Notes: a model not told the origin generated them from the sequence alone. 62,453 nt of DNA from a virus (IMGVR_UViG_3300043436_001486:1-62453); one strand, 5' to 3'; numbered from the stretch's first letter, positions 16,424 to 30,526 are shown. Numbers and translations are program-made.

Positions 16424-16868
16424 ATATTTCTTTAAAAGGGTTTGAAGAAATTCCTCCTAATTCAGCTGATTCGTCTTGCAAAAACTCTATTCTACTCTTC
16501 TTGTCCGACTGCCAGAATATGTAAGGGTTTAAGTAATAATGTCCTTTACCATACTTAGTTAGCGCTCCTGCATTACACAATTCTTCTATACATCTGTAGT
16601 ATGTTGCAATGCTTATTGGATTAGAGTTGTTATTTTTTAAGTAAGAAACAAACTTTAAATGCCCTTTAGAACTTACGATAACGCCATTCATTGTATTCGC
16701 CTCAGCAAGCAAGTAAAAAAGCAATTTCCAGCTTGTGCCACCATCAATATTCAGCGCAATCTTTACAAATGACTTGTAAACTTGCGTAAAGTCTTCATCA
16801 ATTTCAAAATAACCCTTCTTTGTAACGGTTATTGTTTTCTGCGTGTTAAAGTATATTCTCTTACTCAT
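16389..16868 (-). CDS. RepL-like winged-helix protein (leftward)
   Basis: 159 aa. Residues about 46-120 form a winged helix of the RepL plasmid-replication type: WKLLFYLLAEANTMNGVIVSS, ISIATYYRCIEELCNAGALTKYGKGHYYLNPYIFW. In this family the third helix and wing bind DNA, and the phrase 'YxxNPxxFW' closes the domain. A second protein of the same type lies at 30531-30992. The gene has a perfect Bacteroidota promoter and an operator-like dyad array upstream, so it is a candidate regulator or replication initiator. Confidence 0.6.
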   Translation of the reverse strand: MSKRIYFNTQKTITVTKKGYFEIDEDFTQVYKSFVKIALNIDGGTSWKLLFYLLAEANTMNGVIVSSKGHLKFVSYLKNNNSNPISIATYYRCIEELCNAGALTKYGKGHYYLNPYIFWQSDKKSRIEFLQDESAELGGISSNPFKEICDKGAVQSSSL

Positions 16869-18384: not shown

Positions 18385-20232
18385 TTAAAATGATGAATCT
18401 TCTAAGTCTAAATCCTCTTCTCTCTCCTTGTCAATAAGCTTCTTGTCCATTCTTAGGTAGTCCCTTTCAAATGGAAGGTGTCCGTATTCATCCGTAAATT
18501 CTACTCCGTTGTGCATTTTTATACGTATGGATTCTCCGTTCTTAGTAACTCCTCCACCCGTAAACTCTGCTGTCCTATGCTTTACAATCTTTAGCTCGTT
18601 AATCATCCAGCTTTCCGGGTCTTGCGTATTCCTATTCATTACAATGAATATGTCAGTCTTATTTACCAGAACTGCGCCACCATCAGCATCAGCAGGGTAA
18701 GGCATTGGCTGATTACCGTCCTTATTCCTTTGCCTCTGGCTTTCACTCCTTGTATGTACAGAAAGTAGTACAGTTATGTTTGTCCTCTTGGTAAACAGAA
18801 GCATATTGGTGTACATTTCCATCTCATGCTCATACTTAGAGGCCTTTCCGCTCATTTTAAGTGAGTTTACTGGGTCTATCAGTAGGCCTTTTACGGCATG
18901 AAACTTAGAAACCGATTCAGCGTACTCCAGAATCTCCTCATAATCATGCATCTTGTCGTTGTTAATGAAGAAAATTCTGTCATTAACCCACTTCATTGCC
19001 TGCTGAAAGAAGTCTTCTGGGCAGTCTTTAATCTTTGAGCCTACATAAAACTCTACGAATCTCATCTTAACGGATGCTACCTTGTTCTCTCCCGTATAAA
19101 CTACCCAGCACCAATCATACTTCAGCGCTGAAAGGAATATAAGCCACAAAGTAACTTGTGTTTTACCCGTAGAAGTATGGCTTAGAATCGCATAGAACTG
19201 CCCTTCATTGAGAAGTAAATGCTTGTCCATGTCTTCATACCCAAATGGTTTACCCATTGGAATTAAGCCTGCTCTGTACTTCCTAATGAACTCTTCATCA
19301 GCTCTGTTGTTTGAGAGGAAAGAAAGTTCATCCTCAATAGCACCTACCTCATGCCAAACTTCCTGCTCATACCTATCAATGTCGCTGATTGGCATATACC
19401 TTCCAGCCTTAATGCCATCTCTTACGGCCTTTAGCTCTGTCTCCTGCTCATCATGGGCAAACTTCTGCATTACCTCATACTCCAGAACCATCGTCCCAAT
19501 GTACTCCTCTACAATACCGCCAGAAATCAGCCCGCCGACAAGGTACGCTGATTTGATTACAGCATTGTGCCTACTTCCTTGTTCAGCTACCCTAATCATC
19601 TTAGCAGCAACCCCAAGCCTTTTGTAGTCTGTGAATCCAGAAGTCATAGTAACGCCCTGCGTAACTACCTTCTCTGTTAATTCAAAGAATACTTGGGAGT
19701 TTTCGTTTATGTAAATGTCTGGGTCATAGCTGAAGAACAGAACCCTTGACGGGTTTCTTGCAGTCGGGTCAAATACAGGGTAGCGTTTTAGTAGTGCAGT
19801 ATAGTGTTCATCATGCCTATTACCATCAGCAATCTTAATCAGTCCATGCAGTCCGGTGCCCGAAGGGGAAGTCCATAAGGCATAAATATACGGGTCTTTA
19901 TGCACCTCCGCCTTATACTTCTGAATATCTACATCATCAATGTCAAATGGCAATAGCTTTGAGTGTTCAGAAAGGGAGTCATCAGTCCTATATGACTTGT
20001 AATAACTACCATCTTCCCTCTCTTTTATGACTTGAATGTCAAACTTTCCAGCAAATAGAACGCAAGGGAGTGTCATTTTTAAATCCCTAATTCGGGAATC
20101 ATCCGACTCAGCCCTTATTTTTTCTATTAAATCTTTCTGGTTGCCGTTCCTTATGCCATCAAGGACAGTAGGAAGCTCAATGTAATACGGGTTTTCAACA
20201 TCCTTAAAAGACCTAAATACTGTTACCTTCAT
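18385..20232 (-). CDS. Primase-helicase fusion (VirE/BT4734-type N-domain plus SF4 helicase)
   Basis: 615 aa. Residues about 50-180 resemble the BT4734/VirE N-terminal domain, an archaeo-eukaryotic primase-like fold: LLPFDIDDVD (acidic metal site) and WTSPSGTGLHGLIKI (His-containing motif). Residues about 330-580 form a DnaB-like RecA domain with Walker A SHTSTGKTQ (about 350-358), Walker B GLLIDPVNSL and a sensor VLLSVHTRSE. It would prime and unwind at the phage fork. The C-terminal tail EEDLDLEDSSF is acidic like an SSB tip. The start overlaps the DnaA-like gene by 20 nt. Confidence 0.8.
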   Translation of the reverse strand: MKVTVFRSFKDVENPYYIELPTVLDGIRNGNQKDLIEKIRAESDDSRIRDLKMTLPCVLFAGKFDIQVIKEREDGSYYKSYRTDDSLSEHSKLLPFDIDDVDIQKYKAEVHKDPYIYALWTSPSGTGLHGLIKIADGNRHDEHYTALLKRYPVFDPTARNPSRVLFFSYDPDIYINENSQVFFELTEKVVTQGVTMTSGFTDYKRLGVAAKMIRVAEQGSRHNAVIKSAYLVGGLISGGIVEEYIGTMVLEYEVMQKFAHDEQETELKAVRDGIKAGRYMPISDIDRYEQEVWHEVGAIEDELSFLSNNRADEEFIRKYRAGLIPMGKPFGYEDMDKHLLLNEGQFYAILSHTSTGKTQVTLWLIFLSALKYDWCWVVYTGENKVASVKMRFVEFYVGSKIKDCPEDFFQQAMKWVNDRIFFINNDKMHDYEEILEYAESVSKFHAVKGLLIDPVNSLKMSGKASKYEHEMEMYTNMLLFTKRTNITVLLSVHTRSESQRQRNKDGNQPMPYPADADGGAVLVNKTDIFIVMNRNTQDPESWMINELKIVKHRTAEFTGGGVTKNGESIRIKMHNGVEFTDEYGHLPFERDYLRMDKKLIDKEREEDLDLEDSSF

Positions 20233-20659
20233 CTAAGTTTTTTTTCTCGTAAAAATCCGCTATGTCTTTGTCAAATGCCGCTATGAGAACTTGTAATCTT
20301 TCATCATACTTCAAGTGCCCGTTAATCTTATTGAGGTGGTATATAACCCCAGAATGGTCTGCAACATTAACGTATTGGGAAATCCTTTGAAGGGAAAGCC
20401 TTGAGTATTTATTTAACAAATACACAGCAACCTGCCTTGCCTCTACTACTCCCCTAGTTCTATTCTTTTTTGAAATCTCTACTCCTAACTTTCTTTGAAC
20501 TAAGTCAACAATGAAGTACGGCTCTATAATACTTGCTGAATTATTAATCCTTGAGACTACTCCGCAGTCAACCCCAAGTTCTATTGCCAGCGCATAGGCC
20601 TCTTCTATTTTTCTCAAAATATGTTTGACTACCTCTATCCTAAGTGTGTTATTTTCCAT
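20213..20659 (-). CDS. DnaA domain IV-like DNA-binding protein
   Basis: 148 aa. Residues about 68-117 (RTRGVVEARQVAVYLLNKYSRLSLQRISQYVNVADHSGVIYHLNKI) follow the DnaA C-terminal pattern: Arg/Gln-rich first helix, LSL..I........DHS.V.....KI. The DHS signature contacts the DnaA box in bacteria. There is no AAA+ domain, so it cannot unwind DNA alone. Position directly upstream of the primase-helicase suggests that it marks the origin and loads the helicase. Confidence 0.75.
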   Translation of the reverse strand: MENNTLRIEVVKHILRKIEEAYALAIELGVDCGVVSRINNSASIIEPYFIVDLVQRKLGVEISKKNRTRGVVEARQVAVYLLNKYSRLSLQRISQYVNVADHSGVIYHLNKINGHLKYDERLQVLIAAFDKDIADFYEKKNLDEGNSI

Positions 20660-20921
20660 TGTTATATTTTTCTTCGTAATATTCCTCTTTACTATAATGC
20701 GGTAAGTTGGGGTGGCTTATAGGTGTTTCTTGTCCATCGGAAAATGCTTTCATTATATGCTCTTTCTCCATTGCTTTTGCTTCTGCTATGTCATCCTGAG
20801 ATAGGTAACCTTGCCTATGGTGGTATCTTAGTGCCAACCATTCAACTGCTGTTAAGTTTTTAAGTATTCCAATATTCATATCGGCATTACTTGTTTGTGT
20901 TATTTTTATTTGTTGTGCCAT
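20649..20921 (-). CDS. Hypothetical protein
   Basis: 90 aa. It reads AVEWLALRYHHRQGYLSQDDIAEAKAMEKEHIMKAFSDGQ, a helical stretch typical of small conserved phage proteins of unknown function that lie among recombination genes. It overlaps the DnaA-like start by 11 nt. Confidence 0.65.
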   Translation of the reverse strand: MAQQIKITQTSNADMNIGILKNLTAVEWLALRYHHRQGYLSQDDIAEAKAMEKEHIMKAFSDGQETPISHPNLPHYSKEEYYEEKYNNGK

Positions 20922-20924
20922 AGT

Positions 20925-21167
20925 TTATAGTTTTTCGTATGTTGCTTCAAAGATGTCGGGTTTGCAAGGGTAAAATTCACCTTTAATTCCTTTGATTATG
21001 TAGTCTCCTTTGCTTGCTAACATATTACCTTCCAAGGTTTCTATTACTACGCCTGTTAAAGGATGCCATTTTAATTTATCTCCACAGAACTCCACTAATA
21101 CATCTGTATTATCTGCTGTTAATTGGATAGCTTCAATTACTACTGGTTTCTTTCTGTATTGTGCCAT
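20925..21167 (-). CDS. Conserved phage protein, GDYIIKG...CKPDIFE family
   Basis: 80 aa. It starts AQYRKKPVVIEAIQL and ends GDYIIKGIKGEFYPCKPDIFEATYE, a pattern that I recall from a very widespread small phage family. The fold is predicted mainly beta. Biochemical function is unknown in all members that I know. Confidence 0.75.
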   Translation of the reverse strand: MAQYRKKPVVIEAIQLTADNTDVLVEFCGDKLKWHPLTGVVIETLEGNMLASKGDYIIKGIKGEFYPCKPDIFEATYEKL

Positions 21168-21178
21168 AGTTTATTTGT

Positions 21179-21343
21179 TTAAAATATTCTGTACAAATCT
21201 GAATACTCGTCAGCCTTCTTATGCTTGGAAATCTTTTCACACACCTTGCAGTATGTTGCCAGCTTGTCTACTCTTGTGAGGCTTTTAAAGAACTCATCAG
21301 CGGGCTTAACCAACTTGCATTTAGGACATTTCTTTTCCTTCAT
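21179..21343 (-). CDS. Small zinc-finger protein, paralogue of 15408-15569
   Basis: 54 aa: CPKCKLVKPADEFFKS then YCKVCEKISKHKKADEYSDLYRIF. The two CxxC pairs, the aromatic after the first pair and the '.EY..LY..F' end match the gene at 15408-15569. The start overlaps the stop of the upstream gene (ATGA). Confidence 0.65.
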   Translation of the reverse strand: MKEKKCPKCKLVKPADEFFKSLTRVDKLATYCKVCEKISKHKKADEYSDLYRIF

Positions 21344-21795
21344 TTTGCAAGTGTAATTTTATAAGATGTTGTACTTGTTTTTGTAGGGCCAATAGCAGCT
21401 TCTCCATTCTCGTCAACAAGTGTATGTCCAGCAGGTATTTTCTTTAGTAAATCCTCTCTTTGCTTAAGTGCTGATGTTGATTCATCATTCCTTGCTTTCA
21501 GTTCAGCCCATGTAGAATCTCCAGAATAATCATACTTAACTCCCGTTTCAGCAGTTTCAATCTTGGCATCATAAATATTTACTTTCCCCCCTTGGTATTT
21601 ATAAAGCTCGTCAATCGTGTATTTATTTAGCCTTTCTCTGGCATCTTTAACGAACTCTTCAATAACTTTAAGCTGTAAGGCTACATCAATAGCATTTACT
21701 TCTCCGTTGTCAACTTGCTGAATAAGTATGTCTGACGCAATCTTGATGTCAGACTTGGTAGGTTTAAGGTTTTGTAGTTGTAGTTCCATTTTCAA
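21340..21795 (-). CDS. Hypothetical helical phage protein
   Basis: 151 aa. The N-terminal half is helical (DVALQLKVIEEFVKDARERLNKYTIDELYKY). The middle has VNIYDAKIETAETGVKYDYSGD and the end TSYKITLAK. Proteins of this pattern are frequent near phage ERF or RecT genes, and the ERF gene is two genes upstream. Possibly a recombination accessory; no catalytic residues are evident. Confidence 0.65.
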   Translation of the reverse strand: MKMELQLQNLKPTKSDIKIASDILIQQVDNGEVNAIDVALQLKVIEEFVKDARERLNKYTIDELYKYQGGKVNIYDAKIETAETGVKYDYSGDSTWAELKARNDESTSALKQREDLLKKIPAGHTLVDENGEAAIGPTKTSTTSYKITLAK

Positions 21796-21973
21796 TGTTT
21801 GTAGTGCGAATAATTGTTATTTCTGGTTGTGAAGTTCCATCAAGTACCCTTTCGTAAAATTCCATAGCCTTCTCGCTATTGTGGGACAATGAACCCGTTA
21901 CATACTCTCCATCAATACTTGTGTAGTACCAAATGACTTCTCCCTTTTTTTCTTTAACAAAATCTATTCTCAT
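21764..21973 (-). CDS. Hypothetical small protein
   Basis: 69 aa, predicted mainly beta (VIWYYTSIDGEYVTGSLSHNSEKAMEFYERVLDG). It overlaps the next gene by 32 nt and the ERF stop by 4 nt. No family is recognised. Confidence 0.6.
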   Translation of the reverse strand: MRIDFVKEKKGEVIWYYTSIDGEYVTGSLSHNSEKAMEFYERVLDGTSQPEITIIRTTNIENGTTTTKP

Positions 21974-22506
21974 GGTTTGGTGTTTAATTGTTCTTTAACT
22001 TCTTTAGAAAGCTTATACTTCTTCTCTACATCAGCAATGCTTCCGCCCTCCAGAACGTACTTGTGTGCTGCATCAAACTGCGTAGTGCCTTTGTTTAACC
22101 ACGGCTTACCATCGTCTTTCTTCTCCTCATGCGTGTTTGTTTCATCAGCATCCTTTGTGTCATCAATGGCAAACATTCCATTAAGGGCATACTTTCTGGC
22201 ATAGGATGAAGACGCGCCCGTAATCTGGCTGTCAGACATTCCCTTCTGCGTTTCTGGTTCTCTTGCAAAGGCTGAAACTGAAATAGAATCTGTACCATTG
22301 GAAACTTTGACAGTCGCCTTTACATATACCCTGTCGCCAATAATAGCCATGTCATCGCTGATTGTCAGTATGCAGTTATGCTTAAATAGTAAAGGCTTAA
22401 CGGCCTCAAGGATGTCTTCTGCGTTTCTGTACTTGTAGCCTCCAAACTTGTTGAATTGGGACTTAGGTGCTTTAAGTTCGTTCTGAATGTGTACTAATTC
22501 TTTCAT
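21970..22506 (-). CDS. erf: ERF family single-strand annealing protein
   Basis: 178 aa. The ERF signature is clear: ELKAPKSQFNKFGGYKYRNAEDILEAVKPLL at residues 8-38, then VRATV-like KATVKVSNGTDSISVSAFARE and GMSDSQITGASSSYARKYALNGMFAIDDTKDAD. ERF proteins form rings that anneal complementary single strands in phage recombination and genome circularisation. The C-terminus is a variable charged tail. It is coupled to small genes on both sides by ATGA overlaps. Confidence 0.9.
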   Translation of the reverse strand: MKELVHIQNELKAPKSQFNKFGGYKYRNAEDILEAVKPLLFKHNCILTISDDMAIIGDRVYVKATVKVSNGTDSISVSAFAREPETQKGMSDSQITGASSSYARKYALNGMFAIDDTKDADETNTHEEKKDDGKPWLNKGTTQFDAAHKYVLEGGSIADVEKKYKLSKEVKEQLNTKP

Positions 22507-22679
22507 TGTTTATGTGCTTTTGGGTTTGATGTTATTCCATATTCGTAAAATGCAGAAAGGATTTTTACCTCTAATTCTTGGTTAACTTCCTCTATCTGTT
22601 TCTCATTTAGCGAATCGTGAAAATACTCACGAATGTATTTCTGTACCTTTTCAATTACATTGTCTTGTACTTGTTTCAT
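22503..22679 (-). CDS. Hypothetical small protein
   Basis: 58 aa, helical and charged (VIEKVQKYIREYFHDSLNEKQIEEVNQELEVKIL). Its start overlaps the stop of 22676-22873 and its stop overlaps the ERF start, both as ATGA, so it is very likely translated. Function unknown. Confidence 0.6.
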   Translation of the reverse strand: MKQVQDNVIEKVQKYIREYFHDSLNEKQIEEVNQELEVKILSAFYEYGITSNPKAHKQ

Positions 22680-22873
22680 AATTCTATGTGTGGTGTTGGT
22701 GGGAAATATTCTGCTGATGGTAGATTCTTTTCAGCATTGTTTACAATGCCTTTTACTCTTTGGTATATGTTTTCATCATGCCATATTGCGTGATGAACTT
22801 TAGCTATGAATACCATTCTGTCTGGTTCACTCATTCTTGCAAATGATGAAATGTTTTCTAAGATTTCTTTCAT
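22676..22873 (-). CDS. Hypothetical small protein
   Basis: 65 aa (EILENISSFARMSEPDRMVFIAKVHHAIWHDENIYQRV), helical, with no known motif. The sequence just before the ATG reads CCTTAAATT on the minus strand, a leader motif shared by several genes of this arm. Confidence 0.6.
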   Translation of the reverse strand: MKEILENISSFARMSEPDRMVFIAKVHHAIWHDENIYQRVKGIVNNAEKNLPSAEYFPPTPHIEL

Positions 22874-22877
22874 AAAT

Positions 22878-23039
22878 TTAAGGTTTAACGATTGTTATAA
22901 CTGGCTTTTTCTTATTCCAATAGTGTTTTGCGTGCTTGATGCATCCGCATTGGCAGGTATATATTTCGTGCCTATACCTTTCAGCCTTGTGCAGACTTCT
23001 TATCTCCCACTTGTGCGGCTTGCTCGTTGTAATCTTCAA
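22878..23039 (-). CDS. Small Cys/His protein, start uncertain
   Basis: The C-terminal part KPHKWEIRSLHKAERYRHEIYTCQCGCIKHA looks like a real metal-binding protein, with CQCGC and several His. No ATG lies near; I place the start at a TTG at 23037-23039 (53 aa). The frame is open to an ATG at 23156, but that extension overlaps the upstream gene and looks like a shadow. Confidence 0.45.
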   Translation of the reverse strand: MKITTSKPHKWEIRSLHKAERYRHEIYTCQCGCIKHAKHYWNKKKPVITIVKP

Positions 23040-23187
23040 GAGTACTTGAAAAAACCCCAATAATGAATAATGGGAAAGGGAGTTTTGATTTGTCTTTCTT
23101 TGGCAACTTGTTCCAATCGTACTTGAGGGAATCGTAGTTTCTTGCTGTAAATTCATAAACTGCTTTTAAGGTTTGTTGTGCGTTCAT
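22981..23187 (-). CDS. Hypothetical small protein
   Basis: 68 aa. AQQTLKAVYEFTARNYDSLKYDWNKLPKKDKSKLPFPLFIIGVFSSTLEDYNE: soluble, with one moderately hydrophobic patch. The start is 1 nt from the stop of the membrane peptide upstream. No family is recognised. Confidence 0.55.
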   Translation of the reverse strand: MNAQQTLKAVYEFTARNYDSLKYDWNKLPKKDKSKLPFPLFIIGVFSSTLEDYNEQAAQVGDKKSAQG

Positions 23188-23188
23188 T

Positions 23189-23332
23189 TTATTTGTTTAA
23201 TTTGTGTTCAATAGCATCAGCCAAGCTTAGTATTCCGTCAAGCAAAAATTCAAGGATGGTTGCCATGAGTATTAGCAAGAACCAAGCTGTCATTGGCAAT
23301 GCCAATACGATTAGTAGTAATATTTTCTTCAT
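23189..23332 (-). CDS. 47-aa single-span membrane protein
   Basis: Residues 3-29 (KILLLIVLALPMTAWFLLIL...) form one long hydrophobic helix followed by an acidic/basic end DAIEHKLNK. The leader carries the AACCTTAAAA motif. It may act at the membrane during takeover; nothing more can be said. Confidence 0.55.
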   Translation of the reverse strand: MKKILLLIVLALPMTAWFLLILMATILEFLLDGILSLADAIEHKLNK

Positions 23333-23368
23333 AATTTTAAGGTTGTGTGCAATTTAATAACTTGTTAG

Positions 23369-23629
23369 TTAATTGCCAAAATTATTTTCAGATTCAATCC
23401 AGCTATGGATTTGCTCAACTATGACACCAATGTGTTCTTTAGTCAATAACTTGGTAATGTCAATTTCTGGCAGTCCAATGAATCCCATTGTAATCTTCTG
23501 AATTTCTATGGTAACGTAGTCAAATTGGCTTACATTCCCATTAAACTCCCTTAATTCATTACTTTCTTCAATCGTGTAATGTGCGTCTATTGAGAACTTG
23601 TCTCCGTATGCAAGTGCTATTGTCTTCAT
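23369..23629 (-). CDS. Hypothetical protein
   Basis: 86 aa, mixed alpha/beta, acidic (DAHYTIEESNELREFNGNVSQFDYVTIEIQKITMG). Coupled to the upstream gene by a 4-nt overlap. One of a string of orphan genes in the leftward arm; no family recognised. Confidence 0.6.
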   Translation of the reverse strand: MKTIALAYGDKFSIDAHYTIEESNELREFNGNVSQFDYVTIEIQKITMGFIGLPEIDITKLLTKEHIGVIVEQIHSWIESENNFGN

Positions 23630-23982
23630 AATTCTATTTCTAATGTTGTTAAGTATGTTGGGGAAAGTCTGCCATTCTCTTCGGCCACTCCTCTGTAATC
23701 GTAAATTCTTTCATCAGCCCACTTTCCATGACTGTCTTCATGTATGTTGATGAATCCTATTTCAGTTTCTACCAATGCGAATAAGTCATATTCGTGTTCT
23801 GTTGCAGTATAATCCCCGTTTTCGTACCAAGTCTGGCAAACTCCGTTAATCCATCCAATAATAACATGTCCTTTAATAGCATCAAGATTGTGTCCGCAAA
23901 CTTGAACAGCAAGTCCGCTACGCGTAACGCAATCGTAATCTGATGGCATACCTGCCTTGTATTTTACTTTTTTGTAGTTCAT
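23626..23982 (-). CDS. Hypothetical protein
   Basis: 118 aa. Predicted beta-rich (GHVIIGWINGVCQTWYENGDYTATEHEYDLFALVETEIGFINIHED). It contains two Cys at unusual spacing but no metal motif. Coupled on both sides by 4-nt overlaps. Function unknown. Confidence 0.6.
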   Translation of the reverse strand: MNYKKVKYKAGMPSDYDCVTRSGLAVQVCGHNLDAIKGHVIIGWINGVCQTWYENGDYTATEHEYDLFALVETEIGFINIHEDSHGKWADERIYDYRGVAEENGRLSPTYLTTLEIEL

Positions 23983-24188
23983 ATTTCTGAATATTTAGGG
24001 TATCTCCCGTTTTTTGTAATGTTTATTTGTATTTCCTTAACCCTTCTGTCATCTGTTATGTCAAGGGAAAGTTTTGAGAATGTGTAGACGCATCGCTGCC
24101 CTTCATGGTATATTTCTATTGGCACTTCATCAAGTCCATACTTGTCATCTAACATCTTCAGCTGATTAAGTAATGCTTTTGCTGTCAT
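23979..24188 (-). CDS. Hypothetical protein
   Basis: 69 aa. The phrase LLNQLKMLDDKYGLDEVPIEIYHEGQ is reminiscent of small phage proteins with an 'L..LP.D.EV' core, but no family can be named. Coupled by ATGA overlaps to both neighbours. Confidence 0.6.
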   Translation of the reverse strand: MTAKALLNQLKMLDDKYGLDEVPIEIYHEGQRCVYTFSKLSLDITDDRRVKEIQINITKNGRYPKYSEI

Positions 24189-24355
24189 AGGTTAATTAGT
24201 TCAATTATTTCCTCTGTGGATTCTATGGCAAATATTTTACTTGCCGAACCCTGCAAGTCTATTATTGAACCAGAACCATTCCTTGAAATTTGCAGGATTA
24301 ATGCTGAATTAATCCATTCATTGCCATACGTTGTTGTTACTTTAATAATCTTCAT
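24185..24355 (-). CDS. Hypothetical small protein
   Basis: 56 aa (VTTTYGNEWINSALILQISRNGSGSIIDLQGSASKIFAIESTEEIIELINL), beta-rich. Start at 24355, stop overlapping the next ATG. It fills the gap between two other orphan genes, which with the ATGA junction supports it as real. Confidence 0.55.
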   Translation of the reverse strand: MKIIKVTTTYGNEWINSALILQISRNGSGSIIDLQGSASKIFAIESTEEIIELINL

Positions 24356-24521
24356 TGTTTTCAAATTTTTCGGTTTCGTTTTTGTAATATAATGCTATCC
24401 CTATCAGCCTATTAACAAGCTGCCATTCTGTTTCCATTGCTATTTTCATAGCATCTTCAACATTTTCTATTTCATCTCCTGCAAGTTCCATAATTGCTCT
24501 TACCATTAATTGTCTGTCCAT
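24342..24521 (-). CDS. Hypothetical small acidic protein
   Basis: 59 aa, helical (VRAIMELAGDEIENVEDAMKIAMETEWQLVNRLIGIALYY), acidic C-terminus ENNEDY. It overlaps the next gene by 14 nt. Function unknown. Confidence 0.55.
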   Translation of the reverse strand: MDRQLMVRAIMELAGDEIENVEDAMKIAMETEWQLVNRLIGIALYYKNETEKFENNEDY

Positions 24522-24525
24522 TGTA

Positions 24526-24786
24526 TTAAATTGTGTTGTCAGCTAATTTGTGTCCAATAATGTTATAAAGTTCAGCAGTTGGCCACCCTCCATTTTCTTC
24601 TATTGCCATGTAATCCAATGTGTCATGCTGAATGTCCTGCATGGTAAAGGTATTGTCAGTTGCACTAAGCCTAAAGTTTTCTATTATAATACTTTCAGCT
24701 TGTTCATAATTTTCAGCTTCAAATTGGTGGTATTCCCTAACCCAAATCGTGCATTTTCTGTCAATGTGAAATTCAAATTTGTCCAT
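24526..24786 (-). CDS. Hypothetical protein
   Basis: 86 aa. FEFHIDRKCTIWVREYHQFEAENYEQAESIIIENF resembles small phage beta-alpha proteins. It is the first gene behind the phased-box promoter at 24791-24836, whose -7 box is only 4 nt from the start codon. Function unknown. Confidence 0.6.
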   Translation of the reverse strand: MDKFEFHIDRKCTIWVREYHQFEAENYEQAESIIIENFRLSATDNTFTMQDIQHDTLDYMAIEENGGWPTAELYNIIGHKLADNTI

Positions 24787-24790
24787 GTTG

Positions 24791-24836
24791 TAAATTTAGT
24801 TGTGTTTATTGTTAAAAAGTGTTAATGGGTTGTTAA
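24791..24836 (-). promoter_or_regulatory. Phased-box early promoter B
   Basis: Minus strand: -7 box TAAATTTA (24791-24798), 4 nt before the ATG; upstream, GTTAA boxes (plus-strand reading) begin at 24811, 24821 and 24832. The first is 12 bp from the -7 box, where the other four promoters have 11. The distal box overlaps the stop codon of the RadC gene. Confidence 0.6.
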
Positions 24837-25276
24837 AGCTGTCCTTCTTCAGCAAATGAATAATAGCTGTCTTCCGTTAGGATTATATGGTCAAGCAAAT
24901 TAATGTCAAATAGCTTACATGCCCCATTAATCTTGTCTGTCATGCTTTTGTCATTGGCTGATGGTTTGAGGTTCCCAGATGGATGGTTATGGGCCACAAT
25001 TAAGCTTGATGCTGAACTTTGCAGTGCCATTGTCATAATTACCTTAACATCGCATACCACTCCAGAAAATCCTCCTGCACCTACCTTATAATAGCCTATA
25101 ACTTTATGTGCCCTATTTAGGCATACCAAAATAAATTCCTCTGTCCATTGAATTGTGTCAGCATTAAATACGTTTCTTAGAACTTGTACAATGTCATCCG
25201 AATTTTTTATGTAAAATTCATCTCCCTTTGTAGCTTTTACTTTAATCTTAAGTTCTGGCAATTTAATTTTTTTCAT
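24833..25276 (-). CDS. radC: RadC/JAMM-domain protein
   Basis: 147 aa. The MPN/JAMM motif is complete: IVAHNHPSGNLKPSANDKSMTDKI (about 92-115), with HxH and downstream Ser-Asp, then FDINLLDHIILTEDSYYSF. RadC-like proteins occur in many phages and mobile elements; the JAMM zinc site suggests a peptidase or nuclease-type hydrolase, but the reaction is not settled. Only the RadC domain is present, without the N-terminal helix-hairpin-helix of bacterial RadC. Confidence 0.88.
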   Translation of the reverse strand: MKKIKLPELKIKVKATKGDEFYIKNSDDIVQVLRNVFNADTIQWTEEFILVCLNRAHKVIGYYKVGAGGFSGVVCDVKVIMTMALQSSASSLIVAHNHPSGNLKPSANDKSMTDKINGACKLFDINLLDHIILTEDSYYSFAEEGQL

Positions 25277-25279
25277 GTG

Positions 25280-25471
25280 TTATGTGGTTTGAAGGTCGTA
25301 TAAAAGATTGTCAATATATTGCTCATGTGCAATTACCTGCATAATCTGGGTGCGTTCCTCTAAGTTAATCCGGCATAGGTGCTGTAAGTATTCAATAAAA
25401 TTCCAATGCGTGTAATTTTCTGCCTTGTATTGGGCAAAGTACTTGTTTGTCAGTTCTTCTAATTTTTTCAT
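25280..25471 (-). CDS. Hypothetical small protein
   Basis: 63 aa, helical and charged (LEELTNKYFAQYKAENYTHWNFIEYLQHLCRINLEERTQIMQVI). First gene behind phased-box promoter A; 3 nt before RadC, so the two are co-transcribed. Confidence 0.6.
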   Translation of the reverse strand: MKKLEELTNKYFAQYKAENYTHWNFIEYLQHLCRINLEERTQIMQVIAHEQYIDNLLYDLQTT

Positions 25472-25491
25472 GTGTGTTTGTGTTTAGATTG

Positions 25492-25547
25492 TAAAGGTAT
25501 TCGCTGAATTGTTAAAATGTTGTCAAGGTGTTGTTAAAGAGTGTTAA
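25492..25547 (-). promoter_or_regulatory. Phased-box early promoter A
   Basis: Minus strand -7 box TACCTTTA (25492-25499); GTTAA boxes (plus-strand reading) at 25511, 25533 and 25543. The gap between -7 box and first GTTAA is 11 bp. It drives the pair 25471-leftward and RadC. Confidence 0.65.
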
Positions 25548-25738
25548 TTTTCATATTCGCAATATATTTCTTCCTTGCCATCAACTATCTGCATTACTTC
25601 AATGTATAAAAATCCATGCTTATTAAATATTTCAGCATCCTTCATGCAGTATTCAAGCCTGACGTATGGGCCATACCTTCTGGATGCCCCAATTTCTCTG
25701 TCTTGTTCGTTTCTAATTGCGTTAATATAGTAGTTCAT
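25544..25738 (-). CDS. Hypothetical small protein
   Basis: 64 aa from the ATG at 25738, which follows the upstream stop directly; an ATG at 25756 would overlap it. NYYINAIRNEQDREIGASRRYGPYVRLEYCMKDAEIFNKHG: basic centre, acidic end. No family recognised. Its end carries the distal box of promoter A. Confidence 0.55.
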   Translation of the reverse strand: MNYYINAIRNEQDREIGASRRYGPYVRLEYCMKDAEIFNKHGFLYIEVMQIVDGKEEIYCEYEN

Positions 25739-25739
25739 A

Positions 25740-26339
25740 TTAGTAAATTTTTCCATCTTCTGTAAATTCGTATTCGTTTATTTCAAGTTGTTCGGCTATA
25801 TATTCATCGCTGAAATAATATTCGTATGCTTCTGAAATTCTGTCTAAAACTTCTTCCATGTGGTTTGAGAACTTAACTTCAGCATAGTACAATATTTTCG
25901 TTTCTTCATAGCTGAATATGTAGTCGCAATGATTTTCTTCAAAGTTTATTTTTGTGTCTGGATAACGGCCTTTTGTGGCTCTAATCGTGAAATAAACTTT
26001 ATCATGCATCCCTTCGGGTATTTCAAGCCATTCCATGAACATTTTTTCATTGTTTATGACTATTCCATTACTTGCGTCTAAATGCCTATTTCTGTCAAGG
26101 TCATAAAATACTTTTCTACTTCCACTATTCCCAATAATTGGCTTACCATAATCAGCATAGGATGGGCAAAGGTCTACAATTTCTGTATGTCTTGGCTCGT
26201 ATAAATAGCAGTCATCAAGTGCATATTCGCTGAACGTATTATACTTGTATAATCTTTCCCTATATTCTTCAATGGCTTTACTTTGTGCATCCTTTGACAA
26301 TTCGTTGAATTGGTAAATATTTAGTTCTATGGTTTTCAT
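25740..26339 (-). CDS. Conserved phage hypothetical protein
   Basis: 199 aa. The N-terminus MKTIELNIYQFNELSKDAQSKAIEEYRE is a pattern seen in many phage proteins ('..ELS..AQ.KAI..YR'). The middle contains a Gly/Asp-rich beta region and the C-terminus an acidic helical repeat (MEEVLDRISEAYEYYFSDEYIAEQLEINEYEFTEDG). Overall charge is strongly acidic, as in DNA-mimic anti-restriction proteins, but that is speculation. Confidence 0.65.
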   Translation of the reverse strand: MKTIELNIYQFNELSKDAQSKAIEEYRERLYKYNTFSEYALDDCYLYEPRHTEIVDLCPSYADYGKPIIGNSGSRKVFYDLDRNRHLDASNGIVINNEKMFMEWLEIPEGMHDKVYFTIRATKGRYPDTKINFEENHCDYIFSYEETKILYYAEVKFSNHMEEVLDRISEAYEYYFSDEYIAEQLEINEYEFTEDGKIY

Positions 26340-26340
26340 G

Positions 26341-26541
26341 TTATAATTTTATAAATTGGCAATAATTTTTAATTTCTGACAAGTCGATACGGCCATACAT
26401 TCGGCTTGAATAATATCCCTGCATCCTATACCTTTCAATCCAATTTGTAAGGCTATTTAGGGCCTCTTTCTGGCTTTTATAATACGGCTTGTCAAATTCT
26501 ATTGTGAATCCGTCTGGGCTTAAAATTTGGTACTTTGCCAT
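26341..26541 (-). CDS. Hypothetical small protein
   Basis: 66 aa, basic and aromatic (FDKPYYKSQKEALNSLTNWIERYRMQGYYSSRMYGRIDL). No family is recognised. 1-2 nt gaps to both neighbours show an operon. Confidence 0.6.
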   Translation of the reverse strand: MAKYQILSPDGFTIEFDKPYYKSQKEALNSLTNWIERYRMQGYYSSRMYGRIDLSEIKNYCQFIKL

Positions 26542-26543
26542 GC

Positions 26544-26738
26544 TTATTTTTTAAATGCTTTATTCCATTCTTCAATCATTAAGTTTTGCAGTTCCCGAAG
26601 TTCAGCAAGGGTATTGCCCACAAACTGCTCAAAACTATAATGGATGCCATGTATTTTGTCCTGCATTGTCTGGATGTTGCAAATAATTTGCATAGCTTCG
26701 GCTTGTTGCTCAAATGACATTTTTTTAAATTTGTTCAT
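26544..26738 (-). CDS. Hypothetical small protein
   Basis: 64 aa, helical (FEQQAEAMQIICNIQTMQDKIHGIHYSFEQFVGNTLAELRELQNLMIEEW). Probably a coiled-coil dimer. Function unknown. Confidence 0.55.
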   Translation of the reverse strand: MNKFKKMSFEQQAEAMQIICNIQTMQDKIHGIHYSFEQFVGNTLAELRELQNLMIEEWNKAFKK

Positions 26739-26749
26739 GGTTTATTGTT

Positions 26750-27112
26750 TTAAATTTCAGCAGAAAATTGACATTGTCCTTCCCTTTCAATACATTCCTC
26801 AATCTTTTTGCCAAGTTTATAGTCGGCATATTCGCTAAGCATCCTATCCGTTATTCCTGCTTCATCAAGTTCTGAATCCGCGTAACCATTTCTTTCGGCA
26901 AAAAATTCTTCAATCTTCTGTAAATTTTCTCCCAAAATTTCCTCAATCCTTTTTAATTCATCTTTTACTTCCTGCAAATTGTCTTCTTCAAAATAGTATT
27001 CAATGCAACTTGGTTCACATTCAGCATCTGCCGAAAATCTTGATGCTGCATCGCTTGGCTGAACACCAAACCAAAATTTGCCGTTAATATCTCCGTTATA
27101 ATACCTTCCCAT
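26750..27112 (-). CDS. Hypothetical acidic protein
   Basis: 120 aa from the ATG at 27112 (MGRYYNGDINGKFWFGVQPSDAA). An earlier ATG at 27208 would overlap the small gene upstream. YYNGDINGKFWFGVQPSDAASRFS is reminiscent of a small Bacteroidota phage family; the rest is acidic helical (VKDELKRIEEILGENLQKIEEFFAERNG). Its leader is nearly identical to that of 27253's upstream neighbour (see 27135-27230). Confidence 0.6.
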   Translation of the reverse strand: MGRYYNGDINGKFWFGVQPSDAASRFSADAECEPSCIEYYFEEDNLQEVKDELKRIEEILGENLQKIEEFFAERNGYADSELDEAGITDRMLSEYADYKLGKKIEECIEREGQCQFSAEI

Positions 27113-27137
27113 GATTGTGTTTTTTAGTGTGTTATTA
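27111..27137 (-). repeat. Repeated gene leader, copy 1
   Basis: These 27 bases match 27229-27255 with one difference. Both copies end at an ATG on the minus strand and read AACACACTAAAAAACACAA before it, so two adjacent small genes share a duplicated leader. A related sequence (AATAACACACTAAAA) precedes 27700-27867. Confidence 0.65.
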
Positions 27138-27230
27138 AAATTTAAGTATTTGTAGGTAGTTTTGATATGCTTCATCATAAGTGAGTGCCCAAATCCTATA
27201 CCCGTCAATAATGAATAGCTTTTTTTCCAT
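27135..27230 (-). CDS. 31-aa peptide
   Basis: MEKKLFIIDGYRIWALTYDE... then KF and stop. It lies exactly between two copies of the same leader and starts with the same ATGG context as its neighbour. No function is assigned. Confidence 0.45.
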   Translation of the reverse strand: MEKKLFIIDGYRIWALTYDEAYQNYLQILKF

Positions 27231-27252
27231 GATTGTGTTTTTTAGTATGTTA

Positions 27253-27639
27253 TTAATTTTGTTTCCAAATTTCTCCTAACTGCTCAAATGTTTTCCAAGA
27301 TTCCAATACATTTTTGCCATATCTGGGTTTTTTGATGCAAATGTTAATGTACTTCATTTCTGAACGTTTTTTTGCATTGCGTTCTATTGTTTCAGCATCT
27401 TTCCATGAATCGCATACAACAATAAACTTGTTTGTCTTGTTTTCAGCCATGCCCCACCCACTAAAAAATTTGTCTGTCATGGTTACATAAATAGGCAACT
27501 TTTCTAATTTTACAATGGCTGAATCTGGGCACAATTCAAGCCTGCAAATTTCTTCCCTTGCTTGTTGTTCGTTGTTTGAGTAAACATAAATAACTGCATG
27601 GCCTTTGTCATGTTTTACTTTTGCTTTGTACTTAATCAT
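27253..27639 (-). CDS. Conserved phage hypothetical protein
   Basis: 128 aa. The segment YVTMTDKFFSGWGMAENKTNKFIVVCDSWKDAETIERNAKKRSEMKYINI resembles a widespread small phage family ('TDKF.SGWG.A..K.NK ... C.....A......A..R.E.KY..I'). No catalytic motif is known. Its leader carries AACCTTAAATTTTTT directly behind a terminator hairpin. Confidence 0.7.
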   Translation of the reverse strand: MIKYKAKVKHDKGHAVIYVYSNNEQQAREEICRLELCPDSAIVKLEKLPIYVTMTDKFFSGWGMAENKTNKFIVVCDSWKDAETIERNAKKRSEMKYINICIKKPRYGKNVLESWKTFEQLGEIWKQN

Positions 27640-27653
27640 TTCAAAAAATTTAA

Positions 27654-27689
27654 GGTTAAAAAATTGCAGGTTTTCGGGTTAGCCTGCAT
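27654..27689 (-). terminator. Rho-independent terminator
   Basis: Minus strand: TGCAGG, a 12-nt loop, CCTGCA, then ATTTTTT. The 6-bp perfect stem and T-run follow the 55-aa gene at 27700-27867. Confidence 0.6.
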
Positions 27690-27699
27690 CCCATTAGGG

Positions 27700-27867
27700 T
27701 TAGTTAAAGAAAATAAATTCAACGCACTCCGCGTGTTCATCCATTCCCATGTCTTGAAAAGTTGTATAGCATCCATCAGCATCAGAAACAAAAACAAGGT
27801 TACAAACTTCTGAAACGATGGTTTTTCCGTAAATTTCAATGGCTTCTTTTAGTGTGGCTTTGCTCAT
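27700..27867 (-). CDS. Hypothetical small protein
   Basis: 55 aa (KATLKEAIEIYGKTIVSEVCNLVFVSDADGCYTTFQDMGMDEHAECVEF). It is preferred over another minus-strand frame in the same bases because it starts right behind phased-box promoter C and its leader and ends just before a terminator. Mixed alpha/beta; function unknown. Confidence 0.6.
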   Translation of the reverse strand: MSKATLKEAIEIYGKTIVSEVCNLVFVSDADGCYTTFQDMGMDEHAECVEFIFFN

Positions 27868-27901
27868 TTTTTTTTGTTTTAGTGTGTTATTGTTTAGAAT
27901 G

Positions 27902-27958
27902 TAAAAATAGCTGATGAATTGTTAAATTGTTCACAATGGTATGTTAATCAGTTGTTAA
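27902..27958 (-). promoter_or_regulatory. Phased-box early promoter C
   Basis: Minus strand -7 box TATTTTTA (27902-27909); GTTAA boxes (plus-strand reading) at 27921, 27943 and 27954, i.e. 11 bp from the -7 box and then +22 and +33. GTTCACAATGG lies between the first two boxes, as in promoter D. Confidence 0.65.
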
Positions 27959-28123
27959 GATGCCATGTTCATTAATCAAAAAAATTATGTTGTATATCTG
28001 GCTTTTATATGCGTGTCTGTCCATTAATTCCTCTTCAAATTTCTGAATGTTTATATAATACAAATTATTGTCCAATACATAATTAACGGCATCATTTATA
28101 TTTTTGAATGTTTCTACTTTCAT
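27944..28123 (-). CDS. Hypothetical small protein
   Basis: 59 aa from the ATG at 28123; an ATG at 28159 would overlap the upstream gene. KVETFKNINDAVNYVLDNNLYYINIQKFEEELMDRHAYKSQIYNIIF: helical, no motif. Its end overlaps the distal boxes of promoter C. Confidence 0.55.
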   Translation of the reverse strand: MKVETFKNINDAVNYVLDNNLYYINIQKFEEELMDRHAYKSQIYNIIFLINEHGILTTD

Positions 28124-28124
28124 A

Positions 28125-28313
28125 TTATTCGGCTTCAAATGTTTGTAAATAATCAGCATTTAATTCTTCTTCCTCTCTGAAAAAACTGGCTGTGTTCATC
28201 CAAGATTGTGCCATGTGTTTATCAACTTCCTTTGTGCTGTTTGTGTCTTTTACTTTGTAGGCCGTAACTACATGGCAATTTTCATGTCTTAATTTCCAAA
28301 GTGAGTATTTCAT
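28125..28313 (-). CDS. Hypothetical small protein
   Basis: 62 aa (YSLWKLRHENCHVVTAYKVKDTNSTKEVDKHMAQSWMNTASFFREEEELNADYLQTFEAE), acidic C-terminus. The leader carries AACCTTAAAATTT. Function unknown. Confidence 0.55.
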   Translation of the reverse strand: MKYSLWKLRHENCHVVTAYKVKDTNSTKEVDKHMAQSWMNTASFFREEEELNADYLQTFEAE

Positions 28314-28330
28314 TTTTATAAATTTTAAGG

Positions 28331-28612
28331 TTAAAAATATTTGTAAGAAATAACGGCTTCAGTATTGCACCGGCTTAATGTTAGGTAATAACCCGAAAAG
28401 TAGCTAAGGCCATAAATTCCATGTGTAAAGTTGCTGTCCGTCCGCATGAACATGTCAAGCGGTAAGGCTGTTTTGTCGCTACCTTCCTTCAGTATTACAT
28501 AGCTTGTTGAATGTGCGTCGGATTCTTCCCTATCTTCTAAAATTTCGGCTTGTAAATTTTCTGGTAGTTCGCTAAAGTCAAAAATATGTGAACGATTGTA
28601 ATTTCTGGTCAT
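28331..28612 (-). CDS. Orphan protein, paralogue of 29154-29429
   Basis: 93 aa. It shares with 29154-29429 the start MTRNYNR, a central 'F.RTD.NFTHGI' motif, SYFSGY(Y/F)LT and the end YKYF. The two lie 0.5 kb apart with one other gene and a short peptide between, so they are a recent tandem family. Secondary structure is mainly beta; function unknown. A terminator and the AACCTTAAATTT leader precede it. Confidence 0.65.
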   Translation of the reverse strand: MTRNYNRSHIFDFSELPENLQAEILEDREESDAHSTSYVILKEGSDKTALPLDMFMRTDSNFTHGIYGLSYFSGYYLTLSRCNTEAVISYKYF

Positions 28613-28625
28613 GGTAAAAAATTTA

Positions 28626-28658
28626 AGGTTTTAAAATTGGCCCGAATTTCACGGGCCT
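28626..28658 (-). terminator. Rho-independent terminator
   Basis: Minus strand: GGCCCG, loop TGAAATT, CGGGCC (28639-28657), then AATTTTAAAA. A perfect 6-bp GC-rich stem between 28669-28992 and 28331-28612. Confidence 0.65.
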
Positions 28659-28668
28659 AAATTCTGGG

Positions 28669-28992
28669 TTATTCGGCTTCTTCGTATGGTTCAAAGGTTT
28701 CTGCTTCGTGGTAGGTAGGGAAAAAATATTCTTCGCCATTGTCAAAGTTAGTAACCAAATATTCTACTTCACGGCCCAACATTGAACAAATGGAAATCCC
28801 ATTTTCTAAGGCAATGTAAACGTAACCCGAATTTGAATTGAAGCCAACCTCCAAAATTTCCTCTCCTGCTGAATAGTCAGAATAGGCAATAAAGCATAAG
28901 CCAAGCCCGTGGGCTTCGCAACATGCAACATAATTTGAATGGAATCCGTTGAACTGAATCTTTGAGCCCGTGTAATAATTTGAAATAGACAT
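28669..28992 (-). CDS. Hypothetical acidic protein
   Basis: 107 aa. Beta-rich and acidic, with Cys pairs at VACCEAHGLGLC and ISICSML; ends FEPYEEAE. It is the gene behind phased-box promoter D. The strong negative charge could suggest DNA mimicry, but no family is recognised. Confidence 0.6.
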   Translation of the reverse strand: MSISNYYTGSKIQFNGFHSNYVACCEAHGLGLCFIAYSDYSAGEEILEVGFNSNSGYVYIALENGISICSMLGREVEYLVTNFDNGEEYFFPTYHEAETFEPYEEAE

Positions 28993-29020
28993 AAATTAAG
29001 GTTTTTGTTGTTATAAAAAG

Positions 29021-29077
29021 TAAAGGTAAAAGGCTGAATGTTAAAATGTTCACAATGGATTACTAAAGGTTTGTTAA
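29021..29077 (-). promoter_or_regulatory. Phased-box early promoter D
   Basis: Minus strand -7 box TACCTTTA (29021-29028); GTTAA boxes (plus-strand reading) at 29040 and 29073, with a degenerate box (ACTAA) at about 29062. The first box is 11 bp from the -7 box. Confidence 0.6.
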
Positions 29078-29148
29078 ATACTATCAGCAAAACAAAGGAG
29101 TAAACAAAGGGCAATGATGCAAATGATTTGAAGGGTTAATTTTTTCAT
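29074..29148 (-). CDS. 24-aa hydrophobic peptide
   Basis: MKKLTLQIICIIALCLLLCF..., then DSI and stop. A Lys-Lys start and hydrophobic core make it look like a signal-type or membrane peptide. It ends inside promoter D. Small size keeps confidence low. Confidence 0.4.
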   Translation of the reverse strand: MKKLTLQIICIIALCLLLCFADSI

Positions 29149-29153
29149 GTGCT

Positions 29154-29429
29154 TTAAAAATATTTATACGCCAAAACGCCATTCATTCCGCACTTGCTGA
29201 ATGTTAGAAAATATCCCGAAAAATAGCTGTCCAAAAAAATGCCATGAGTGAAATTGCCATCTGTACGAATAAACGCACTTAATGGAATGGCTTTGTCGTT
29301 TTCTTCATCTATTGCATACAAAGTATTTTCGGCATCGTCTGGGCTGAAAATATTTAATACTTCGGCTTGTTGCGTTTCTGAAAGTTGAAAAAATAAATAA
29401 AAATTAGTTCTGTTGTAGTTTCTGGTCAT
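29154..29429 (-). CDS. Orphan protein, paralogue of 28331-28612
   Basis: 91 aa. It shares MTRNYNR, 'FIRTDGNFTHGI', SYFSGYFLT and AYKYF with 28331-28612, while the acidic middle differs. No domain recognised. The leader has TACCTTAAATTT, a one-base variant of the shared motif. Confidence 0.65.
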   Translation of the reverse strand: MTRNYNRTNFYLFFQLSETQQAEVLNIFSPDDAENTLYAIDEENDKAIPLSAFIRTDGNFTHGIFLDSYFSGYFLTFSKCGMNGVLAYKYF

Positions 29430-29454
29430 GTTGTAAAATTTAAGGTATAAAAAA

Positions 29455-29673
29455 TTAGTTATTTATGAAACGTATTTCGTTATTCTGCTTAACTGCTAAT
29501 TTATTTTTAATAAGTCTGTTAATTTCTCCAATGCTAACCCTTCCGCTAACTTTTCCATTAAGCAGGGAAAATAAAGAACTAAAATTTTTTGCATCTCTCA
29601 AATATTGAAACCCTGCAAAATTTATGGTTTTGCCGTTTTTTTCTATTGTAACAATCCACATTGTTTTATTCAT
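29455..29673 (-). CDS. First gene of the leftward arm, hypothetical
   Basis: 72 aa from the ATG at 29673, 18 nt behind a TATTTTTG box. TMWIVTIEKNGKTINFAGFQYLRDAKNFSSLFSLLNGKVSGRVSIGEINRLIKN: beta-hairpin followed by helices, basic. It could bind nucleic acid; as the first leftward gene it is probably expressed early. No family recognised. Confidence 0.6.
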   Translation of the reverse strand: MNKTMWIVTIEKNGKTINFAGFQYLRDAKNFSSLFSLLNGKVSGRVSIGEINRLIKNKLAVKQNNEIRFINN

Positions 29674-29691
29674 GTCGTTTGGTTTAGAATT

Positions 29692-29748
29692 CAAAAATAC
29701 AAGGCCAAACGTTAAAATAGTGCCAATGCCTTGTTAAAGGGTTGTTAA
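29692..29748 (-). promoter_or_regulatory. Phased-box early promoter E
   Basis: Minus strand -7 box TATTTTTG (29692-29699), a full TAnnTTTG; GTTAA boxes (plus-strand reading) at 29711, 29733 and 29744: 11 bp from the box, then +22 and +33. This is the outermost leftward promoter. Confidence 0.7.
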
Positions 29749-30471
29749 TACTAACAAATTTCTGGTAGTTGTGTATGGATTGAAATAAGGCGAAATAAAG
29801 CAGGGAATTAACAAAGCAGGGTAAACAATTAGGCGAAGGGTTTAACGGCCTGCAATGGGTTGGTATTACTTTACATTATGTTTCTGGGTATTACCTTCAG
29901 CACATGAGCAGGAAAGGGAGTACAAAATTATTTTATCTGGTTAATTAGATTTTTTGTTTTATCCCTGCAAAGGTTGGGAGGGTTGCATCTGGGCATGATT
30001 AGGGGAATAGGGATATGGGGCAATCCCTACTAAACAAGTAGACTTCTCTTTGTTAAAGAAAAGTTAAAACGTAAACGTTAAAGAAACGTTAAAGAAATTT
30101 ATAGCATGGTACACGGGTTAGGGAAATGGACTTGCACCCCAGGGGGTGGTGACTGGCGCGGAGGGGAGTACCCCAACTACAAACTTATCTACCACTACTA
30201 CACCCATACCTACCCCATTTATACGTCAGCGCATACAATTTGCTCATCAGCACATTGCATATATTCATCAGCATATAAATACAATTGTATAGATGTAATA
30301 TATACTAATATAGAAACGCTATAACTCGTTGATAATCATAACTAATTATTCTACAGGGTTAGAATCGTTTTGTATGAAATTAGAATACACTCAATAATCA
30401 GCGTTTATTATGTGTTTACATGCTTAATAATTATAAGAAGGAAACTCCATAACATGCTGATAATCAATCAT
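29749..30471. other. Divergent non-coding region, possible replication origin
   Basis: No convincing gene. A GTTAA cluster at 30039-30092 (boxes at 30052, 30063, 30077, 30088; a weak TACTTGTT -7 candidate on the minus strand exactly 11 bp to the left) resembles the boxes of the leftward promoters. A G-rich stretch at about 30100-30175 is followed by an AT-rich stretch to 30470 with five TCAGC/GCTGA motifs. A frame at 30106-30324 exists but has tyrosine/histidine-rich low-complexity content and no promoter. Divergence of the two arms, repeats and an adjacent AT-rich segment fit an origin; this is inference. Confidence 0.45.
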
Positions 30472-30526
30472 AGTATTCCGAAATACTGGAAAAAATTTGG
30501 ATAATACTGGAAAAGTAGTATATTTG
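30472..30526 (+). promoter_or_regulatory. Promoter with operator-like repeats
   Basis: A perfect dyad AGTATT-CCGA-AATACT (30472-30487) overlaps the first of two direct repeats AATACTGGAAAA (30482-30493 and 30503-30514, 21 bp apart). They flank the -33 box TTTG (30496-30499), which is exactly 19 bp from the -7 box TATATTTG (30519-30526). The gene starts 4 nt later. A protein bound here would block or position RNA polymerase. Confidence 0.7.

Follow-up and report, generated by a model that had tools for sequence, protein, structure and literature searches.

How are five leftward promoters read when each lacks the upstream element of an ordinary Bacteroidota promoter, and what do the regularly spaced boxes in front of them do? 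We interrogated this question in the virus contig IMGVR_UViG_3300043436_001486, which comes from an uncultured phage of Bacteroidota bacteria and whose whole stretch of 62,453 bases is called the window here. Between 24791 and 29748, five minus-strand promoters carry direct TTAACA boxes with a period of 11 base pairs (bp). Sequence comparison suggests that these boxes are probably an operator of the Pho-box type, which a host regulator of the OmpR/PhoB family, most likely PhoB, binds to activate the promoters.

Layout and conservation of the five promoters

Read on the plus strand, a (C/T)AAAnnTA element is followed by GTTAA after 11 bp at 25492, 27902, 29021 and 29692 and after 12 bp at 24791, so that all five sites and spacings given by an earlier reading of this DNA (the original prediction) are present. 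On the minus strand, 11-12 bp separate the end of the last box from a -7 box of the Bacteroidota type, TAnnTTTA/G. Additional GTTAA boxes lie at +22/+33 (27902, 29692), +22/+32 (25492), +33 (29021) and +10/+21 (24791). The promoters are listed with their four-box matrix scores; -7 boxes are on the minus strand, and slashes separate the repeats of the minus-strand sequence.

24791..24836, minus strand: promoter P24791, 24.9 bits; three TTAACA boxes at 24831-24836, 24820-24825 and 24810-24815, with spacings of 11 and 10; -7 box TAAATTTA at 24791-24798; sequence TTAACAACCCA / TTAACACTTT / TTAACAATAAA cacaac TAAATTTA
25492..25547, minus strand: promoter P25492, 36.6 bits; TTAACA 25542-25547, TTAACA 25532-25537, TTGACA 25521-25526, TTAACA 25510-25515; -7 box TACCTTTA at 25492-25499; sequence aTTAACACTCT / TTAACAACACC / TTGACAACATT / TTAACAATTCA gcgaa TACCTTTA
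27902..27958, minus strand: promoter P27902, 44.0 bits; TTAACA 27953-27958, TTAACA 27942-27947, TTGTGA 27931-27936, TTAACA 27920-27925; -7 box TATTTTTA at 27902-27909; sequence TTAACAACTGA / TTAACATACCA / TTGTGAACAAT / TTAACAATTCA tcagc TATTTTTA
29021..29077, minus strand: promoter P29021, 30.9 bits; TTAACA 29072-29077, TTAGTA 29061-29066, TTGTGA 29050-29055, TTAACA 29039-29044; -7 box TACCTTTA at 29021-29028; sequence TTAACAAACCT / TTAGTAATCCA / TTGTGAACATT / TTAACATTCAG ccttt TACCTTTA
29692..29748, minus strand: promoter P29692, 40.6 bits; TTAACA 29743-29748, TTAACA 29732-29737, TTGGCA 29721-29726, TTAACG 29710-29715; -7 box TATTTTTG at 29692-29699; sequence TTAACAACCCT / TTAACAAGGCA / TTGGCACTATT / TTAACGTTTGG ccttg TATTTTTG

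An ordinary Bacteroidota sigma A promoter combines a -33 TTTG with a -7 TAnnTTTG. Here the -7 box is present and the -33 element absent in five of five, with no TTTG 17-23 bp upstream of any -7 box, confirming what had been noted before. The promoters are therefore probably activator-dependent, as was also proposed. The gap between the GTTAA boxes is occupied by a degenerate third box (TTGACA, TTGTGA or TTGGCA). Because this box had been skipped, the original prediction described boxes at +22 and +33; these positions stand, whereas the true period, seen on the minus strand, is 11 bp. Similarly, GTTCACAATGG does lie between boxes and is not a separate element: its reverse complement, CCATTGTGAAC, includes the third box TTGTGA. 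The overlap of distal boxes with the stop of an upstream open reading frame (ORF) was borne out in three cases, at 24831-24836 (ORF end 24833), 25542-25547 (25544) and 27942-27947 (27944).

Several counts address whether this arrangement exceeds chance. There are five GTTAA pairs at 11 bp and none of TTAAC on the opposite strand. Using the four-box matrix, we found no arrays in the window beyond these five, which all point leftward and score 24.9-44 bits, while maxima in ten dinucleotide shuffles reached 10.3-15.1 bits. This matrix was built from phage sites and partly trained on these five, and independent tests therefore weigh more. The phased three-box pattern with a -7 box occurs in 39 viral contigs, versus one for an off-phase control of the same bases. 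A single family of helically phased promoters, as originally suggested, is supported. What the computation shows directly is the arrays with their phasing, position and conservation, the arrays at host phosphate genes and the absence of a phage OmpR-family gene, the last two described below.

Metagenomes contain close relatives of the window phage, and these keep both the arrays and the box spacing, so that the original prediction withstands its own refuting condition of spacing lost in relatives. P24791 and P25492 are found in L004, the latter with changes only between box cores; P29021 and P29692 are found in L020 (P29692 at 37.1 bits), and L038 and L009/L041 carry three and four arrays. Substitutions in boxes versus spacers of close relatives (4/90 versus 8/81, P=0.23) are too few for significance. 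By shared proteins, the array contigs form one large loose group, to which the window belongs, and roughly twelve further groups, with fewer than two proteins common between groups. An ATG-started ORF, nearly always small, follows the -7 box by 6-51 nucleotides (nt) in 30 of the 39 viral contigs. PHROGs was consulted for ten array-led genes: one resembles an exonuclease, another is a terminase small subunit, which is a distant gene behind the less promoter-like L030 array, and the rest are without known function. Membrane proteins behind the L162 and L174 arrays were considered as phosphate transporters, which Pfam did not confirm.

Additional sequence features accompany the arrays. Just after the -7 box, three promoters have (A/T)TCTAAAC (25480-25491, 27890-27901 and 29680-29691); a similar sequence is in L009 and L038 promoters, and it may indicate where transcription starts. 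At 30052-30092, in an intergenic region between divergent genes, GTTAA recurs four times (30052, 30063, 30077 and 30088, two pairs 11 bp apart), ~11 bp from TACTTGTT, a poor match to a -7 box. L020 retains part of this cluster in a region 79% identical, and the cluster is possibly a sixth array in degenerate form. The isolated Flavobacterium phage elemoC (L175, MT497098.1, 47384-47460) has a weak TTAAC array before rightward genes; at 16.3 bits it scores near chance, and the phage could serve as a cultivable test case.

The repeat at host phosphate genes and its putative regulator

Pho boxes are 11-nt direct repeats that regulators of the PhoB family bind head to tail (PMC4415409, a review), and the cyanobacterial Pho box reads PyTTAAPyPy(T/A) (PMC10976474). 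The window agrees with this layout in its 11-nt direct-repeat period and in the distance of the last repeat from the -7 box, 11 bp in four promoters and 12 bp in one. The same sequence is also found at host phosphate genes. In a 257-gigabase (Gb) prokaryote genome collection, the exact four-box pattern has 14 matches, most in records titled Bacteroidota, Ignavibacteria-type or Kryptonium. Behind them stand PhoB-like regulators, PstS, phosphate-selective porins (Porin_O_P) and TonB receptors. The PhoB-like regulators come from three loci with near-identical start sequences; the two that were scanned have PF00072 and PF00486, with NF053854 as best model at 255-256 bits, just below its cut-off of 270, and the PstS matches TIGR00975 with 393 bits.

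At more than 16 bits, the phage-trained matrix gives 12 matches in the 111 kilobases (kb) surrounding 30 pstS-like genes (~40-fold enrichment, binomial P 2e-7) and 10 in the 108 kb surrounding 30 PhoB-like genes (~34-fold, P 3e-6), relative to one match in 371 kb taken from elsewhere in genomes of the same sets. This lone control match has a PhoB-like gene ~5.5 kb away on its contig. A reversed-pattern control is not independent for TTAACAATT, which is identical read backwards, and other DNA of these genomes therefore served as the control. Among 198 Bacteroidota genomes there are 8 three-box sites, of which 4 have a PstS-like gene no more than 8 kb away; the reversed control had no match. PhoU proved a poor anchor in the family tested, where it was above cut-off in only 5 of 31 genomes. 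In Flavobacteriales, arrays precede a Na/Pi (sodium/phosphate) cotransporter and TonB receptors adjoining PhoB-like genes. The latter arrangement resembles the phoBR cluster of F. johnsoniae, whose TonB receptor is strongly induced on phosphate depletion (PMC8115612). Since the same 11-base repeat precedes host phosphate-starvation genes, the phage probably lets host PhoB switch on its block of small genes. The earlier remark that no such regulon is known is not supported, as the layout matches the OmpR/PhoB Pho box and is found before Bacteroidota phosphate genes.

No OmpR/PhoB-type (PF00486) protein is present in the window or in 17 of 18 further phage records; therefore, the regulator should be the host's. 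L179 (the record of L057) is the only array-bearing viral record of the 18 with PF00486 (41 bits), and its protein may be a phage-encoded regulator, or the record may be a misfiled host contig.

We infer binding by PhoB, activation over repression, and phosphate as the signal. Regulator units made by the host would bind the 11-bp repeats head to tail on one face of the DNA, at about -30 to -65, and the last unit would replace the missing -33 element and recruit host RNA polymerase, with host sigma A reading the -7 box TAnnTTTA/G. In E. coli, PhoB replaces the upstream promoter element and touches sigma. Leftward transcription into the small genes would proceed while the host phosphate regulon is active, triggered either by starvation of the host before infection or by phage DNA synthesis draining phosphate.

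Several points weigh against host PhoB as the activator. OmpR-family regulators are numerous in Bacteroidota, an array is missing from many pstS-like loci, and no phosphate gene is among the genes read behind the phage promoters. L016, a relative with 62% primase identity, is without an array in 21.8 kb of its sequence. The S-PM2d phage paper warns that predicted phage Pho boxes are unreliable without a binding test (PMC10976474). For the flavobacterium Riemerella anatipestifer, DNA affinity purification sequencing (DAP-seq) of PhoP gave the motif core TTTAACA, which counts in favour of the Pho-box reading; this PhoP was, however, tied to virulence and redox, with no clear connection to phosphate (PMC9603813). 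For that reason a different host OmpR/PhoB-family regulator has to be considered, one that would work by the same mechanism without phosphate sensing and respond instead to a cue such as redox or envelope stress. We regard it as rather unlikely. In its favour, the TTTAACA core comes from a regulon that is not mainly of phosphate genes (PMC9603813), Flavobacteriales genomes hold many PhoB-like regulators and some host arrays precede tetratricopeptide repeat (TPR) or TonB genes of unknown role; against it, the strongest host arrays are at pstS, phoB and phosphate-selective porin genes, with enrichment at pstS.

A phage-internal regulon, with the DnaA-C-like (20213-20659) or RepL-like (16389-16868) protein as activator or repressor, is very unlikely, and the two proteins, once proposed as binders of the boxes, are weak candidates. 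The DnaA-C domain passes its cut-off in 8 of 14 records, made up of the window and 13 others with arrays, versus 1 of 9 other records, and only a few of the window's promoters have boxes; however, some array-bearing records lack a DnaA-C match, among them that of L026, which has several arrays, array-less L016 has a DnaA-C protein, and RepL is above cut-off in 1 of the 14, the window alone. Neither protein always accompanies the boxes, in records that may be fragments. Moreover, the same arrays precede host phosphate genes, which a phage DnaA-like factor would leave unexplained, and the array contigs split into several groups sharing fewer than two proteins. A DnaA-box explanation was rejected, TTATNCACA being found once in the window, at 43815, far from the arrays. 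Least probable of all is that the arrays work against PhoB, by repressing promoters or as decoys that titrate PhoB and damp the host phosphate response. Pho boxes can also serve repression, and five arrays on a replicating genome make many sites, but every array occupies the activator position, immediately upstream of a -7 box and the start of a gene, with the -33 element absent, and the ATG comes 6-51 nt after the -7 box in 30 of 39 viral contigs.

A broader idea, somewhat less likely than not, is that many unrelated Bacteroidota phages have each placed a block of small non-phosphate genes under the host phosphate-starvation regulator, which would tune the infection programme as a whole, beyond phosphate uptake, to the phosphate state of the host.

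Genes behind the promoters and the rest of the window

The promoters lead into small genes, listed with amino acid (aa) lengths:

24526..24786, minus strand: 86-aa ORF behind P24791, no family match
25280..25471, minus strand: 63-aa ORF, first gene of the P25492 unit
24833..25276, minus strand: RadC-like JAB-domain gene of the P25492 unit (PF04002, E 4e-37; phrog_10276)
27700..27867, minus strand: 55-aa ORF, first gene of the P27902 unit, then ORF 27253-27639
28669..28992, minus strand: 107-aa ORF, first gene of the P29021 unit
29455..29673, minus strand: 72-aa ORF, first gene of the P29692 unit, then ORF 29154-29429

At 24784-24798, the ATG of ORF 24526-24786 comes 4 bp after the P24791 -7 box, where L004 has a few more bases; if the start codon is correct, the P24791 mRNA would be leaderless. 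Array-led orthologs exist for this gene in L041 (51% identity), for the 55-aa gene of P27902 in L041 (67%) and L038 (62%), and for the P29021 gene 28669-28992 in L038 (75%). The RadC-like gene is within array-led units in the window, L041, L038 and L048 (36% identity); as a scan query, this protein returned 2 loci only.

Other genes of the window are as follows:

11276-13234: terminase
16389-16868: RepL-like protein
18385-20232: primase/helicase
20213-20659: DnaA-C-like protein
36042-38396: portal

Erf-like and RadC-like proteins are also encoded. The nearest isolates, phages of Flavobacterium, Cellulophaga and Maribacter, are distant (~25-36% identity in large proteins). Against isolated phages, DNA of window positions 20000-30000 has no match, and a single promoter has BLAST matches at chance level only. 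A gene at 13930-14745 resembling phosphoadenosine phosphosulfate reductase (phrog_424) adjoins an HNH endonuclease and the terminase. At 30110-30175, a GC-rich stretch, ACTTGCACCCCAGGGGGTGG...GGGGAGTACCCC, is strongly conserved in L020. Before the rightward genes, 30320-30480 holds a repeated motif of the form AACnCyATAACnnGyTGATAATCA, part of it conserved in L041 and L038; these repeats are a possible operator or origin iterons.

Novelty and comparison with known systems

Phage use of host PhoB is established in cyanophages (PMC10976474). In the open-access literature, we found no report of such use by Bacteroidota phages, with small non-phosphate genes as the target, and no published Bacteroidota Pho-box consensus. 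The Bacteroidota are a major group in soil and gut as well as in fresh and coastal water. If our reading is true, hijacking of the host phosphate response is not confined to cyanophages but reaches the phages of this group too. The reading would also supply a sharp Pho-box consensus for this phylum and name a set of small phage genes whose expression should depend on phosphate.

In T4 middle promoters, a MotA box at -30 replaces the upstream element while the sigma -10-type element is kept. The window promoters are similar in having an activator box in place of the upstream element; in contrast, MotA is phage-encoded and has a single box, whereas the window promoters carry 3-4 boxes in tandem and the search for an activator encoded by the phage found none. 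The Pho boxes of E. coli PhoB, B. subtilis PhoP and cyanobacterial SphR/PhoB share the 11-nt direct repeats, the tandem binding and the replaced upstream element. The TTAACA-like core matches that of B. subtilis PhoP. It also matches the cyanobacterial PyTTAAPyPy (PMC10976474). Unlike these bacterial boxes, the arrays here are phage-borne, and box 3 is usually TTGTGA-like in the window's phage clade. The PhoP sites of Riemerella anatipestifer offer a Bacteroidota OmpR-family regulator with the core TTTAACA, in a host regulon of hundreds of peaks; the available part of that work reports no phage promoters or four-box array (PMC9603813).

Host-PhoB-driven promoters are known in cyanophages, at pstS of P-SSM2 and in S-PM2d, where PhoB-bound promoters include those of non-phosphate genes (DNA polymerase, uvsX and a hypothetical gene) (PMC10976474). 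The shared design, predicted here from sequence, is a phage Pho box through which host PhoB would switch phage genes. Cyanophage boxes are degenerate, their bioinformatic prediction was unreliable, and phage and host are unrelated to the Bacteroidota ones, whereas the window has several near-alike multi-box promoters, with the -7 TAnnTTTG of Bacteroidota, before one block of small genes.

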